The notes beneath the pieces were generated by a model that was not told the DNA's origin, made no database searches, and was given only the letters and a program-made list of their open reading frames with translations. Below, piece by piece: positions 9,094 through 38,885 of a stretch of DNA of 64,000 nucleotides. Made by a program: the position numbers and the translations under genes. The DNA lies in the NCBI RefSeq assembly GCF_024125425.1, contig NZ_JAMXWN010000010.1, positions 62,001-126,000 of the forward strand, in the 5' to 3' direction. The number at the start of each line of letters is the position of its first letter. The stretch's first letter is position 1. The DNA is from Sporolactobacillus kofuensis. GTDB taxonomy: Bacteria; Bacillota; Bacilli; Bacillales; Sporolactobacillaceae.

Positions 9094-9248
9094 CTTCTTA
9101 TCCAGAGTGGTGGAGGGACTGGCCCGATGAAACCCGGCAACCAAATGAAAATTTAGGTGCCAATTCCTGCAAAATCCGATTGGATTTTGAGAGATAAGAG
9201 AAGATATGGAATATTAGCGCTTCTCTCTTCTCGAGAGAAGCTTTTTTG
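9094..9248 (+). promoter_or_regulatory. SAM-I (S-box) riboswitch with terminator
   Basis: The S-box core GATGAAACCCGGCAACC lies within 9127-9144, preceded by CAGAGTGGTGGAGGGACTGGCCC-like P2 sequence. P1 pairs CTTATC (9097-9102) with GATAAG (about 9193-9198). A following 9-bp terminator stem (GCTTCTCTC 9219-9227, GAGAGAAGC 9233-9241) has a TTTTTT tail. High S-adenosylmethionine should stabilise P1 and terminate transcription before metQ. The fit to the class is unambiguous. Confidence 0.95.
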
Positions 9249-16996: not shown

Positions 16997-17629
16997 TTAA
17001 AGGACTGTTTTGGTTGCGCATGTCTTGTCATAAACGCCGGAGACAAAATCCCAGTTGATGACGTTAAAGAAGTTGTTAGCATACTCCGGACGCCGGTTCT
17101 GGTACTTGAGATAATAAGCATGCTCCCAGACATCGAGTCCGAGCAGTGGGGTGGCGCCGTCCATGAGCGGACTATCCTGATTCGGCGTGTTGGTGACTTT
17201 CAAAACATTGAGCTTTGTTACAGACAGCCAAGCCCATCCAGAGCCGAATTGGCCGGTCGCTGCATTTGTAAAGGCTTCCTTAAATTTGTCAAAGCCTCCG
17301 AGCTGTTTGTCGATTGCTTCTGCGAGTGCACCGGTCGGTTTCTGCGAACCGCCGGGGATTAGCACCTTCCAGAAAAAGCTGTGATTATAATGACCGCCAG
17401 CGTTGTTACGAACAGCTGTCCGAATATCCTCAGGGACTTTTTCCAGATGCATAATCAAATCAGTCAACGAACTGTGTTCGAGTTCCGGGTGCTTGTCAAG
17501 TGCAGCGTTTAGGTTCGAGACGTACGTTTGATGATGCTTATCGTGATGAATGAGCATCGTTTCCTTATCAATGTACGGTTCCAGAGCATCAGGAGCAAAT
17601 TCGAGTGCGGGCAGTTCAAAATGACTCAT
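16997..17629 (-). CDS. sodA: Superoxide dismutase, Mn/Fe family
   Basis: This 210-residue cytoplasmic enzyme dismutates superoxide. Metal ligands are seen as His28 in MLIHHDKHH, the His of [11 protein letters not shown] near residue 83, and Asp and His of [12 protein letters not shown] near residues 164-170. ATG 17629 has AAAGGAGG upstream; the frame stays open for another 89 codons, but that part is the tandem-repeat region and not protein. The presence of this enzyme argues that the organism meets oxygen. Metal choice (Mn or Fe) cannot be fixed by eye. Confidence 0.95.
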
Positions 17630-17738
17630 AGAGACCCTCCTTTGTACCAAATCAATTGCCAACCCCAATTCTATTGAATCAAACGATCGGCATTCTAAGC
17701 AATTATTCTGCCTCAACACCTGCACTTTTATGCGAGAA

Positions 17739-17921
17739 GCATTTAATCCAGCAAAAATAGGATTTAATTTGGAAAAAAGGCTTCTTAATCCGGCAAACTT
17801 AGAATTTAATCCGGTGAAAAGGCCGATGAATTTGGGCCGAAATTCCCCGCACAAACGGATTGAAAAATCGCGCAAAACGAGTCTGAACTTACACAAAACT
17901 GCTGAATTTCCGGTGTAAAAC
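17739..17921. repeat. Degenerate 21-bp tandem repeat upstream of sodA
   Basis: Consecutive 21-nt blocks begin at 17739, 17760, 17781, 17802 and 17823 and again at 17859, 17880 and 17901, with a 15-nt partial block at 17844. The clearest units share a core TTAATCCGGCAAA or close variants (for example TTAATCCAGCAAAAATA and TTAATCCGGTGAAAAGG). The later units keep only the AAA spacing. The 21-nt period equals seven codons, so all frames stay open, which explains spurious frames here. It lies in the 370-nt gap between sodA and the amidohydrolase gene. Confidence 0.75.
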
Positions 17922-18002: not shown

Positions 18003-19340
18003 TTAAACACGAATGCCTGCGCGTTTCATCAATCGTTGGATGGCCTGTTCTGATTCTTTTAAAACAAATGTTTGATTAATGGTTTTCATTTGCCTATTTT
18101 CCATGACCACACGTCCATCGATAATGGTGGATTCAACATCTGAACGTATTGCCGAATAGACAATCCGTGAAATCGGATCGGTGCCGAATGAAGGATTGCA
18201 GTGAAATCCATTGAGATTGAGAATGGCAAGATCTGCCTTCTTTCCGGCTTCCAGGCTGCCGATGTCTTGATCCATGCCAACGGCACGTGCACCGTCTATC
18301 GTAGCCATCCTGAAAATCTGGCGGGCATTCATCGCCGTTGGACCATGAACAGGTTTATGGATAAGCGCCGCTAGTCGCATTTCGTTAAACATATCAAGGT
18401 TATTGTTGCATGGTGCACCATCGGCACCGAGTCCGAGATTAATACCCATGTCAATCATCTGGGGTACCTGAGCAATACCGGAGGCAAGCTTCAGGTTAGA
18501 GCCAGGGCAATGACTCACGTGCACACCGCGTTTTTTAATAATTTCTTTTTCCTCTTCACTTAGCCACACGCAATGGGCGAGGATCAGCCGTTTTCCAGCT
18601 AGGCCTATATGGTCAAGGTATACGATATTGCGCATACCTGTGTCCTGTTCAACAATGGCGATCTCGCCCCTATTTTCCGATGCGTGTGTGTGTACGAAGA
18701 CATTGTAGTGATCCGCAAGATCACGAACCTGTGTAAGCAGCGATTCTGTGCAAGAGATAACAAATCGTGGTGCGAATGCATAGCGAATTCTGTTGTGATC
18801 GTAACCGTTCCATTTCTCCAACAAATCCACACTTTCACGAATCGATGATTCCGTTTGTTCTTGAAGCCCAAGTGGGACATCCTCACCTTTATCCATCATT
18901 ACTTTTCCGGAAAGCGCACGAATCCCGCTCTCAGCAATCGCCTGAAATGCTTCGTTCGTGTAGTGAACGGTTTCCATATCGACAATTGTCGTTGACCCAC
19001 CGGAAATAAGCTCACCAATACCGAGCAGTGCAGACAGATAGATCGACTCCTGATCATGGGACGCTTCCAATGGCCAAATTCGAGTGCGAAGCCAATCCAT
19101 TAATTCCAAATCATCTGCCTTTCCTCGGAATAAGGTCTGGCATAAATGAATATGTGTTTGTATAAATCCAGGGATAACGGTACGTCCAGTCCCATCAATG
19201 ACCTGATCTGCCGGATCAGGTTTGATCTCTGGACCTACGGATACAATCCGGCTGTCTTCAATGAGCAAATCACCATGCAGAATTTCTTCAGCAACGTTCA
19301 TGGTAATGATTTCAGCGTTTTTGATAACAATTCTGTCCAA
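18003..19340 (-). CDS. Amidohydrolase of the TrzA/MtaD/guanine deaminase group
   Basis: This 445-residue zinc-dependent deaminase is of COG0402. Metal and catalytic marks are FIQTHIHLCQTLFRG near residue 60, the HTHASEN motif near residue 230, LAHCVWLS near residue 263 and GLGADGAPCNNNLDMF near residue 310. Annotation pipelines would likely call it 5'-deoxyadenosine or MTA/SAH deaminase. However, HIHLCQ has the Gln seen in guanine deaminases (HIHYPQ, HIHASQ), and the gene sits behind a guanine-type purine aptamer. A guanine or related oxopurine substrate is therefore plausible. TTG 19340, 9 nt after GGAG, is my preferred start; ATG 19355 and 19382 are alternatives. Confidence 0.8.
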   Translation of the reverse strand: MDRIVIKNAEIITMNVAEEILHGDLLIEDSRIVSVGPEIKPDPADQVIDGTGRTVIPGFIQTHIHLCQTLFRGKADDLELMDWLRTRIWPLEASHDQESIYLSALLGIGELISGGSTTIVDMETVHYTNEAFQAIAESGIRALSGKVMMDKGEDVPLGLQEQTESSIRESVDLLEKWNGYDHNRIRYAFAPRFVISCTESLLTQVRDLADHYNVFVHTHASENRGEIAIVEQDTGMRNIVYLDHIGLAGKRLILAHCVWLSEEEKEIIKKRGVHVSHCPGSNLKLASGIAQVPQMIDMGINLGLGADGAPCNNNLDMFNEMRLAALIHKPVHGPTAMNARQIFRMATIDGARAVGMDQDIGSLEAGKKADLAILNLNGFHCNPSFGTDPISRIVYSAIRSDVESTIIDGRVVMENRQMKTINQTFVLKESEQAIQRLMKRAGIRV

Positions 19341-19394
19341 ATCAATCATCTCCATTTGTATATTGGTTCTTGGACCCTTCATATTCCTGAAAAA

Positions 19395-19498
19395 CAAAAA
19401 AAGACTACGAAAAAATATGCATGCATATTTTTCGTAGCCGGGAATTTCCGGTTCCTCGGTAGAAACCCTCAAACCGTATTATTAAGGATATACGAAAA
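19395..19498 (-). promoter_or_regulatory. Purine riboswitch (guanine-type) overlapping a terminator
   Basis: On the minus strand, P1 pairs TTTTCGTA with TACGAAAA, and the aptamer core GTTTCTACC is intact. L2 (AATACGG) and L3 (CCGGAAA) keep the GG/CC loop-loop contact. The specificity base in GGCTACG is C, as in guanine aptamers. Two positions appear unusual: G in place of A before that C, and U for A in J1/2. The P1 3' strand is also the 5' arm of a 15-bp terminator (19405-19437, one bulge) followed by a U run, so aptamer and terminator exclude each other. This predicts an ON switch. Confidence 0.88.
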
Positions 19499-19843
19499 CA
19501 GAAAGGATGAAGTTTACGAATTTAATAATAGTTGATCAGATGAGAATGGTCAATAATCTTGTTAGATAATCTAACATAGTTTGTCGAAAACACAGCCGAT
19601 CTGACAAACAAGCTAAACAAATAAGCAAATAACTTAAAACGAGAAATACTAAGGAAAAAACACAGATAATAGGCTTAACTTTCTCATATGGGCAGTGCAC
19701 CATTAGATTATTCTATACCTAACATTACAAAATACCTCTAACGCATCTTTGTTCTTTTATATTATTATAGAGAAAATGATATTAATGTTAGATTTTATAC
19801 CGTCAAATGTATGAAGACTAGCTTTGCTTAGGGGGGCATTTGT
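19499..19843. promoter_or_regulatory. Divergent control region with two inverted repeats
   Basis: This AT-rich gap separates the riboswitch-controlled amidohydrolase (minus) from the amidinotransferase-family gene (plus). A perfect palindrome TGTTAGA-TAA-TCTAACA lies at 19560-19576. A wider inverted repeat follows, GTTTGTC (19579-19585) with GACAAAC (19603-19609). Half-site like TGTTAGA recurs near 19787. These look like operators, but the binding protein is unknown. I see no gene in the stretch. Confidence 0.55.
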
Positions 19844-38544: not shown

Positions 38545-38885
38545 ATAACTGAAATGGAAGTTAATAGCCAGTGAAGAAGAGAGTAACAGTGAAGGACTGC
38601 TCAAGCGAGCCGGGTTGATGGAAGCCGGTGTAGCCAAATCTGTGAAACGCACTTCTGAGGTGACGGCCTGAAAATAGTAGGGTTGTCCGGGAACTCCCGT
38701 TACAGAGTCTTAAGCAGATTCCCCATTTTGAACAGAGGTTCAAAAAGAAGGATAAATGGCCGATACACAATTGTTTTGGAGTCGGAATTTAGTACCTTTG
38801 ATGAGGGAATAACCAGAGTGGTACCGCGGGCAAAGTGAACAACGCTCGTCTCTTTTCTATCGAAAAGAGGCGGGCGTATTTTATT
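38545..38885 (+). promoter_or_regulatory. Arginine T-box leader with terminator
   Basis: The T-box sequence AGAGTGGTACCGCGGG lies at about 38815-38830. Stem I includes GAAGAGAGTAACAG near its base, and the specifier region reads GTGAAACGCACTTCTGAG. This places the codon CGC (arginine) at 38648-38650. A terminator ACGCTCGTCTCTTTTC / GAAAAGAGGCGGGCGT (38842-38877) with a T-rich tail ends the leader. Uncharged tRNA-Arg should stabilise the antiterminator and switch on the arg operon. Confidence 0.93.

Follow-up and report, generated by a model that had tools for sequence, protein, structure and literature searches.

Guanine riboswitches are the textbook OFF devices, and most of those described shut their genes down. 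What, then, would a guanine-type aptamer do in front of a gene for a catabolic deaminase? This question is raised by a leader on the minus strand of a 64-kb stretch of the Sporolactobacillus kofuensis genome (the window, by which the whole 64,000 nucleotides analysed are meant). As judged from sequence comparison, this leader is quite probably a guanine-sensing transcriptional ON switch for a guanine-type deaminase.

The aptamer itself is readily recognised. With cmscan, the Rfam family RF00167 (Purine) was matched at 19515-19415 of the minus strand with 69.8 bits (cut-off 37, E 3e-10), and this is the single purine match above the Rfam cut-off in the 64-kb window. Two other leaders of the window also exceed their Rfam cut-offs, namely a SAM riboswitch at 9095-9200 (+, 94.5 bits) and a T-box leader at 38562-38856 (+, 103.1 bits). 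An earlier note on this DNA had read a complete minus-strand purine aptamer with the specificity base C and had set a covariance-model scan of the leader as a check; the RF00167 score bears it out, and the specificity base C74 stands at 19437. The complete aptamer occupies 19498-19429. Its P1 stem is formed by a 5' strand, UUUUCGUA (19491-19498, from cmscan and a pairing check), and a 3' strand, UACGAAAA (19429-19436), with all eight pairs between 19498-19491 and 19436-19429 being standard. J1/2 follows at 19488-19490 (cmscan and core parsing) with U22 (19490), A23 and, as its last base, U24 (19488). P2, of six pairs, and its loop L2 (AAUACGG) span 19467-19487, as placed by cmscan, folding and core parsing, and the stem is closed by the pair C25-G45 (19487 with 19467). 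J2/3 (19459-19466) reads G46 U47 U48 U49 C50 U51 A52 C53, with U47 at 19465 and U51 at 19461. P3 and its loop L3 (CCGGAAA) take up 19439-19458, the A at 19456 being a bulge as drawn, and J3/1 (19437-19438) consists of G73 (19438) and C74.

In the lowest-energy fold of the aptamer alone, P1 is kept and P2 and P3 are absent; the energy model used ignores the loop-loop contact. Among 30 distinct relatives, two-sided changes were observed in 12 of the 21 pairs, against a shuffled mean of 5.5. Because of this covariation, the Rfam E-value and the presence of the aptamer in 14 of 15 congeneric genomes, it is not a chance match.

The bases that mark a guanine-type aptamer (U22, U47, U51 and C74) are all found in the window, in agreement with the guanine-type assignment made earlier. 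Among the 58 distinct deaminase-linked aptamers, U47, which we take to be a further ligand contact of guanine-type aptamers, and U51 are invariant (58/58), and C74 is present in 57, one being unreadable. U22, U51 and C74 are named as ligand contacts in the available part of PMC9295807.

The architecture downstream of the aptamer points to the direction of switching. An intrinsic terminator lies at 19396-19439 (minus), made up of a hairpin (19439-19403; 16 pairs, one bulge, -15.3 kcal/mol) and a run of seven T (19402-19396), and its formation excludes P1 and J3/1. Its 5' arm takes in the P1 3' strand along with J3/1, including C74. The earlier note had proposed that the P1 3' strand doubles as the 5' arm of a 15-bp terminator; the sharing holds, while the perfect 15-bp stem gives way to the 16 pairs and a bulge. 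A generic terminator scan, working with fixed rules on stems and GC pairs, reported none at the leader; the stem is A-U rich and bulged. With standard energies, the ligand-free fold containing the terminator, P2 and most of P3 reaches -23.3 kcal/mol, against -14.0 kcal/mol for the aptamer. In the pbuE adenine riboswitch of B. subtilis, the P1 3' strand likewise lies within the terminator and the ligand turns the gene on. The window leader has this same platform and would be ligand-on as well, but pbuE carries U74 and senses adenine, whereas C74 is found here.

Upstream, a promoter-like site (TTGACC, 17 nt, TATTAT; 19525-19553, minus) has 10 of the 12 consensus bases and ends 26 nt before P1. 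Since 1.7 such sites are expected by shuffles, it is weak on its own; a TTGAC is present at roughly the same position in 15/15 congeneric leaders. Downstream, a GGAG ribosome-binding site was read at 19350-19353 (minus), 9 nt ahead of a TTG at 19340, which is probably the start of the deaminase gene (18003-19340, minus), as suggested by the congeners.

The gene encodes an amidohydrolase of the GuaD type, in line with the catabolic deaminase expected earlier. Its product matches the NCBIfam family NF005557 (5'-deoxyadenosine deaminase) with 723.9 bits against a cut-off of 522, and falls below the cut-offs for guanine deaminase (TIGR02967, 255.4 vs 375.4) and 8-oxoguanine deaminase (NF006055, 302.6 vs 532). 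The name 5'-deoxyadenosine deaminase was nevertheless not accepted at face value, as the catalytic glutamine is of the guanine/8-oxoguanine deaminase type. The glutamine of the HxHxxQ motif, following beta strand 1, aligns with that of the 8-oxoguanine deaminase 7ww2, whereas the MTA/SAH deaminase 4f0r has a Met at this position. The motif is present at all 80 deaminase loci compared, as THIHLCQ in 78 and THVHLCQ in 2. According to the portion of PMC12828455 that was available, enzymes of the GuaD cluster have a glutamine at that place which is essential for activity, those of the CodA cluster have one located elsewhere, and the remaining clusters have none; in the corresponding portion of PMC13054789, the Q74A mutant of a GuaD-cluster member is inactive. 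The window enzyme is thus most likely a guanine-type deaminase, predicted to convert guanine to xanthine and ammonia. As the xanthine dehydrogenase (XDH) molybdenum-subunit family PF02738 had no match in the window genome, xanthine is probably salvaged or released in this organism.

A gene for an Fe/Mn superoxide dismutase (16997-17896, minus) lies downstream of the deaminase gene, and the superoxide dismutase motif is found there in 9 of the 12 named Sporolactobacillus loci. Elsewhere the neighbours are varied. In one locus (L131), the deaminase is flanked by an allantoate amidohydrolase and by genes whose best matches are XDH subunits C and D; best matches to an adenine deaminase and a MocA-like gene stand beside it in L113 and L109, respectively. 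Only the allantoate amidohydrolase exceeds its curated cut-off among these neighbours, several of which are clipped by the ends of the loci. When the 80 deaminase loci were searched by motif, one gave XDH 2Fe-2S and two gave adenine deaminase. The deaminase of L134 is followed downstream by an ON-subgroup aptamer and by the XDH 2Fe-2S motif.

Aptamer and deaminase have largely been kept together. The deaminase was found in 15/15 Sporolactobacillus genomes searched (the window's own included), the other 14 proteins being 79-90% identical to it, and in 14/15 of these genomes the aptamer scores at or above the Rfam threshold. In the fifteenth, S. spathodeae (L048, whose contig is shared with L075), the leader is degenerate and scores 43.0 bits with our own model R1, which was built from 30 deaminase leaders including the window's. 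Among the best 80 of 431 relatives, R1 places the aptamer upstream of the deaminase at 65 of the 80 named loci, 29 of which supplied training sequences of the model. Of the 68 R1 matches in total, three were left out, namely the window's own, one in L068 that is antisense and one downstream of the deaminase in L134. Two of the 65 are weak (L075, 43.0 bits; L095, 24.3 bits and doubtful). The genera of Bacilli bearing the aptamer include Sporolactobacillus, Paenibacillus, Domibacillus, Niallia, Metabacillus, Amphibacillus, Halalkalibacterium and Fictibacillus. The remaining 15 of the 80 loci are without such an upstream aptamer, nine of these being titled Cytobacillus or Bacillus. Three Fictibacillus deaminase leaders (L113, L123, L139) carry another type of purine aptamer, with differing P2 and J2/3.

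The shared-strand layout was also seen to be widespread. A leader was scored as shared if four or more bases of the P1 3' strand fall within its best terminator; the rows counted are partly redundant. By this measure the layout is present in 68/69 deaminase-linked rows, which agrees with the ON architecture proposed in the earlier note, and in 14/14 rows of FAD-dependent dehydrogenases, 12/12 of true 8-oxoguanine deaminases (7 distinct sequences), 4/4 of XDH (3 distinct), the single adenosine-deaminase-like row and 4/9 of NCS2 permeases. It is found in 2/22 purE, 0/3 xpt, 0/2 phosphoribosyltransferase-like and 4/24 unassigned rows, the last including the deaminase loci L072 and L123, whose motif lay outside the stretch searched. 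The background was taken as 8 of 60 RF00167 matches from relatives, picked regardless of layout; some of the 8 are possibly real, and the set keeps poorly parsed rows (such as L254, L279 and L298). Many related bacteria thus have purine-related genes that are preceded by the aptamer in its predicted ON arrangement. The dehydrogenases, recognised by a GAGPAGIF motif, follow ON aptamers in L202-L218 (except L215), L176 and L184-L186, as well as in L220, L222, L223, L226, L227, L231 and L234. Purine-type aptamers with shared-strand terminators also occur in L188, L323 and L324, the P2 loop being enlarged in the latter two; the genes after L188 and L324 resemble EamA-type transporters.

The closing pair of P2 follows this layout. 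C25 and G45 are each present in 87 of 91 distinct shared-strand aptamers, against 4/47 (C25) and 1/47 (G45) of the distinct separate-terminator ones, in a set partly picked with a model of the ON subgroup. In a nine-genome set collected by RF00167 only, of which 43 of 54 aptamers were parsed and 11 left out of the counts, C25-G45 occurs in 19/43, all 19 being shared-strand; four further shared-strand aptamers are without it. It was found in 0/20 aptamers of this set with separate or no terminators, and in 0/60 of the unselected aptamers of relatives, including the 8 scored as shared. For the xanthine-II and guanine-II rows of the nine-genome set, the parse is shifted by two bases at positions 24-25, and G25-C45 is read by eye. 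As the sequences are related by descent, none of these aptamer counts represents independent events. The C25-G45 pair marks the putative ON subgroup. It was also seen by eye in L308, L309, L318 and L186, where core parsing had failed. Two aptamers of ON type with C25-G45, L235 (1593-1667) and L318, have an adenine-type U74 by eye; the genes after them are adenosine-deaminase-like and purine nucleoside phosphorylase-like, respectively.

Two core bases had earlier been called unusual, with a possible change of ligand preference. Both are indeed present, G73 before the specificity C (19438) and U24 in J1/2 (19488); yet G73 is found in 54 and U24 in 28 of the 58 distinct deaminase-linked aptamers (L095, which was not parsed, is absent from these), and the contacts U22, U47, U51 and C74 are kept. 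The guanine-I consensus has a conserved A73, which is not a named ligand contact; the window differs from it by G73, as do 5/21 purE aptamers. Among distinct sequences, G73 occurs in 72/91 shared-strand versus 10/47 separate-terminator aptamers, in the nine-genome set in 15/23 versus 10/15, and in 0/60 of the unselected aptamers of relatives. Separate-terminator aptamers of purE and NCS2 genes that carry G73 are L219, L221, L229, L233, L238, L165, L171, L311 and L316; G73 alone is thus no mark of an ON switch or of a new ligand. Across 87 distinct hairpins, position 73 and its terminator partner form G-C in 64, G-U in 5, A-U in 16 and C-G in 1, and in one the position lies outside the hairpin. 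Where G at 73 is replaced by A, the far arm has U instead of C; this supports the pairing but does not prove it, as the hairpins were chosen by a folding step that demanded pairing. Position 73 pairs inside the terminator of the ON subgroup, which gives a reason for G apart from the choice of ligand. An altered ligand was not accepted on the strength of G73 and U24, as G73 is common, occurs with separate terminators too, and pairs inside the terminator.

How does the aptamer compare with the known classes? With guanine-I (xpt type, RF00167) it shares the three-stem junction, the GG/CC contact of L2 and L3, and U22, U47, U51 and C74, but it differs in its presumed ON output, G73, C25-G45 and a catabolic gene. 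The best reading of its sequence is a guanine-type ON variant and not a standard guanine-I. Among the papers listed in a CC-licensed collection for guanine switches with a deaminase, XDH or ON control, only PMC9295807 proved relevant. A guanine switch of the ON kind is no novelty in itself, since the available part of that paper describes guanine-II as predicted ON, sensing guanine and keeping U22, U51 and C74, as the window does. The phosphoribosyltransferase-linked L319-L321, taken as guanine-II, carry CCAGGC as a long J3/1 and lack C25-G45, whereas J3/1 of the window has two bases; L319 and L321 were scored as separate-terminator. L313, L315, L317 and L322 have U51G and a long J3/1 and precede allantoinase-like or Rieske-dioxygenase-like genes. 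These two groups, whose genes were named by eye, fit what that part of PMC9295807 describes as guanine-II and xanthine-II. Guanine-II was rejected for the window, where J3/1 is GC only, without the insertion of L319-L321; as for the single J2/3 insertion of guanine-II, whether the window has an insertion or a bulge depends on the drawing of P3. Xanthine-II (U51G) was rejected as well, U51 being present in the window and in 58/58 deaminase-linked aptamers.

Another known ON type, the 8-oxoguanine riboswitch, occurs in Paenibacillaceae and is linked to the gene for 8-oxoguanine deaminase. It is mentioned in the available parts of PMC9295807, PMC9971707, PMC9881172 and PMC11625349. A true 8-oxoguanine deaminase (NF006055 above cut-off) was found in 13/35 Paenibacillus genomes, and 12 of these 13 genes are preceded by a purine aptamer. 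The J2/3 of these aptamers (GCUCUAC) is one base shorter, and A73 is present in all 7 distinct sequences; we infer that they (L145-L156) are the published 8-oxoguanine switches. As so assigned, they share with the window the shared-strand ON layout, C25-G45 and a downstream deaminase, and differ in the shorter J2/3, A73 and the deaminase family. Under the same assignment, their mean identity is 0.73-0.77 to the ON deaminase, dehydrogenase, NCS2 and XDH groups, 0.58 to OFF purE and 0.67 to separate-terminator NCS2 aptamers.

Could the window leader then sense 8-oxoguanine and turn on an 8-oxoguanine deaminase gene, in the manner described for Paenibacillaceae? The ON layout, the superoxide dismutase gene adjoining in 9/12 named Sporolactobacillus loci and the enzyme's glutamine, characteristic of a cluster that contains 8-oxoguanine deaminases (PMC13054789, in its available part), speak for it. 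The aptamers of true 8-oxoguanine deaminases differ, however, the J2/3 of the window is not shortened, the gene stays below the NF006055 cut-off, and the XDH-like neighbours in L131 suit xanthine and not urate as product; this type was rejected, and we hold it to be quite unlikely. That some other purine (hypoxanthine, xanthine or a modified guanine) is sensed, with G73 and C25-G45 reshaping the junction, would accord with the complete absence of both features from the 60 unselected aptamers and with the specificity variants among the ON relatives (U74 in L235 and L318; the 8-oxoguanine type), but the named contacts are kept and G73 also accompanies separate terminators (10/47 and 10/15), which leaves it unlikely.

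An OFF switch, terminating on ligand binding like those of xpt and purE, would conform to most described guanine switches and to the two further purine aptamers of the window genome (L001, L003), both with separate terminators. The terminator here is instead built from P1 and J3/1 bases and so cannot form while P1 stands, and folds of the aptamer and leader show no antiterminator; this alternative is considered very unlikely.

The guanine-sensing ON switch would work as follows. Without the ligand, once the aptamer has been transcribed, the hairpin would recruit the P1 3' strand, together with J3/1 and its C74, to the terminator, and the gene would be off. With guanine held by C74 and U51, P1 would stay together, the terminator would come too late, and the deaminase would be made. 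As the enzyme is predicted to turn guanine into xanthine and ammonia, the substrate would induce its own breakdown. In this scheme the aptamer, the shared-strand terminator, their conservation and the gene family are read from the DNA, and it is from these that the ligand, the direction of switching and the substrate are predicted.

It may tentatively be suggested, at a small probability, that the C25-G45 aptamers are a separate ON clade of Bacilli for purine breakdown and uptake with diversified specificity (guanine, 8-oxoguanine and adenine-type U74), whose deaminase branch may prefer a modified guanine. A broad ON subgroup before catabolic genes would show the guanine pocket wired to the opposite output, and C25-G45 would provide a base-pair signature for finding such switches. 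A large deaminase family would then also seem to carry the wrong name. By the resemblance of the aptamers, as assigned, the subgroup is further a plausible source of the 8-oxoguanine type.
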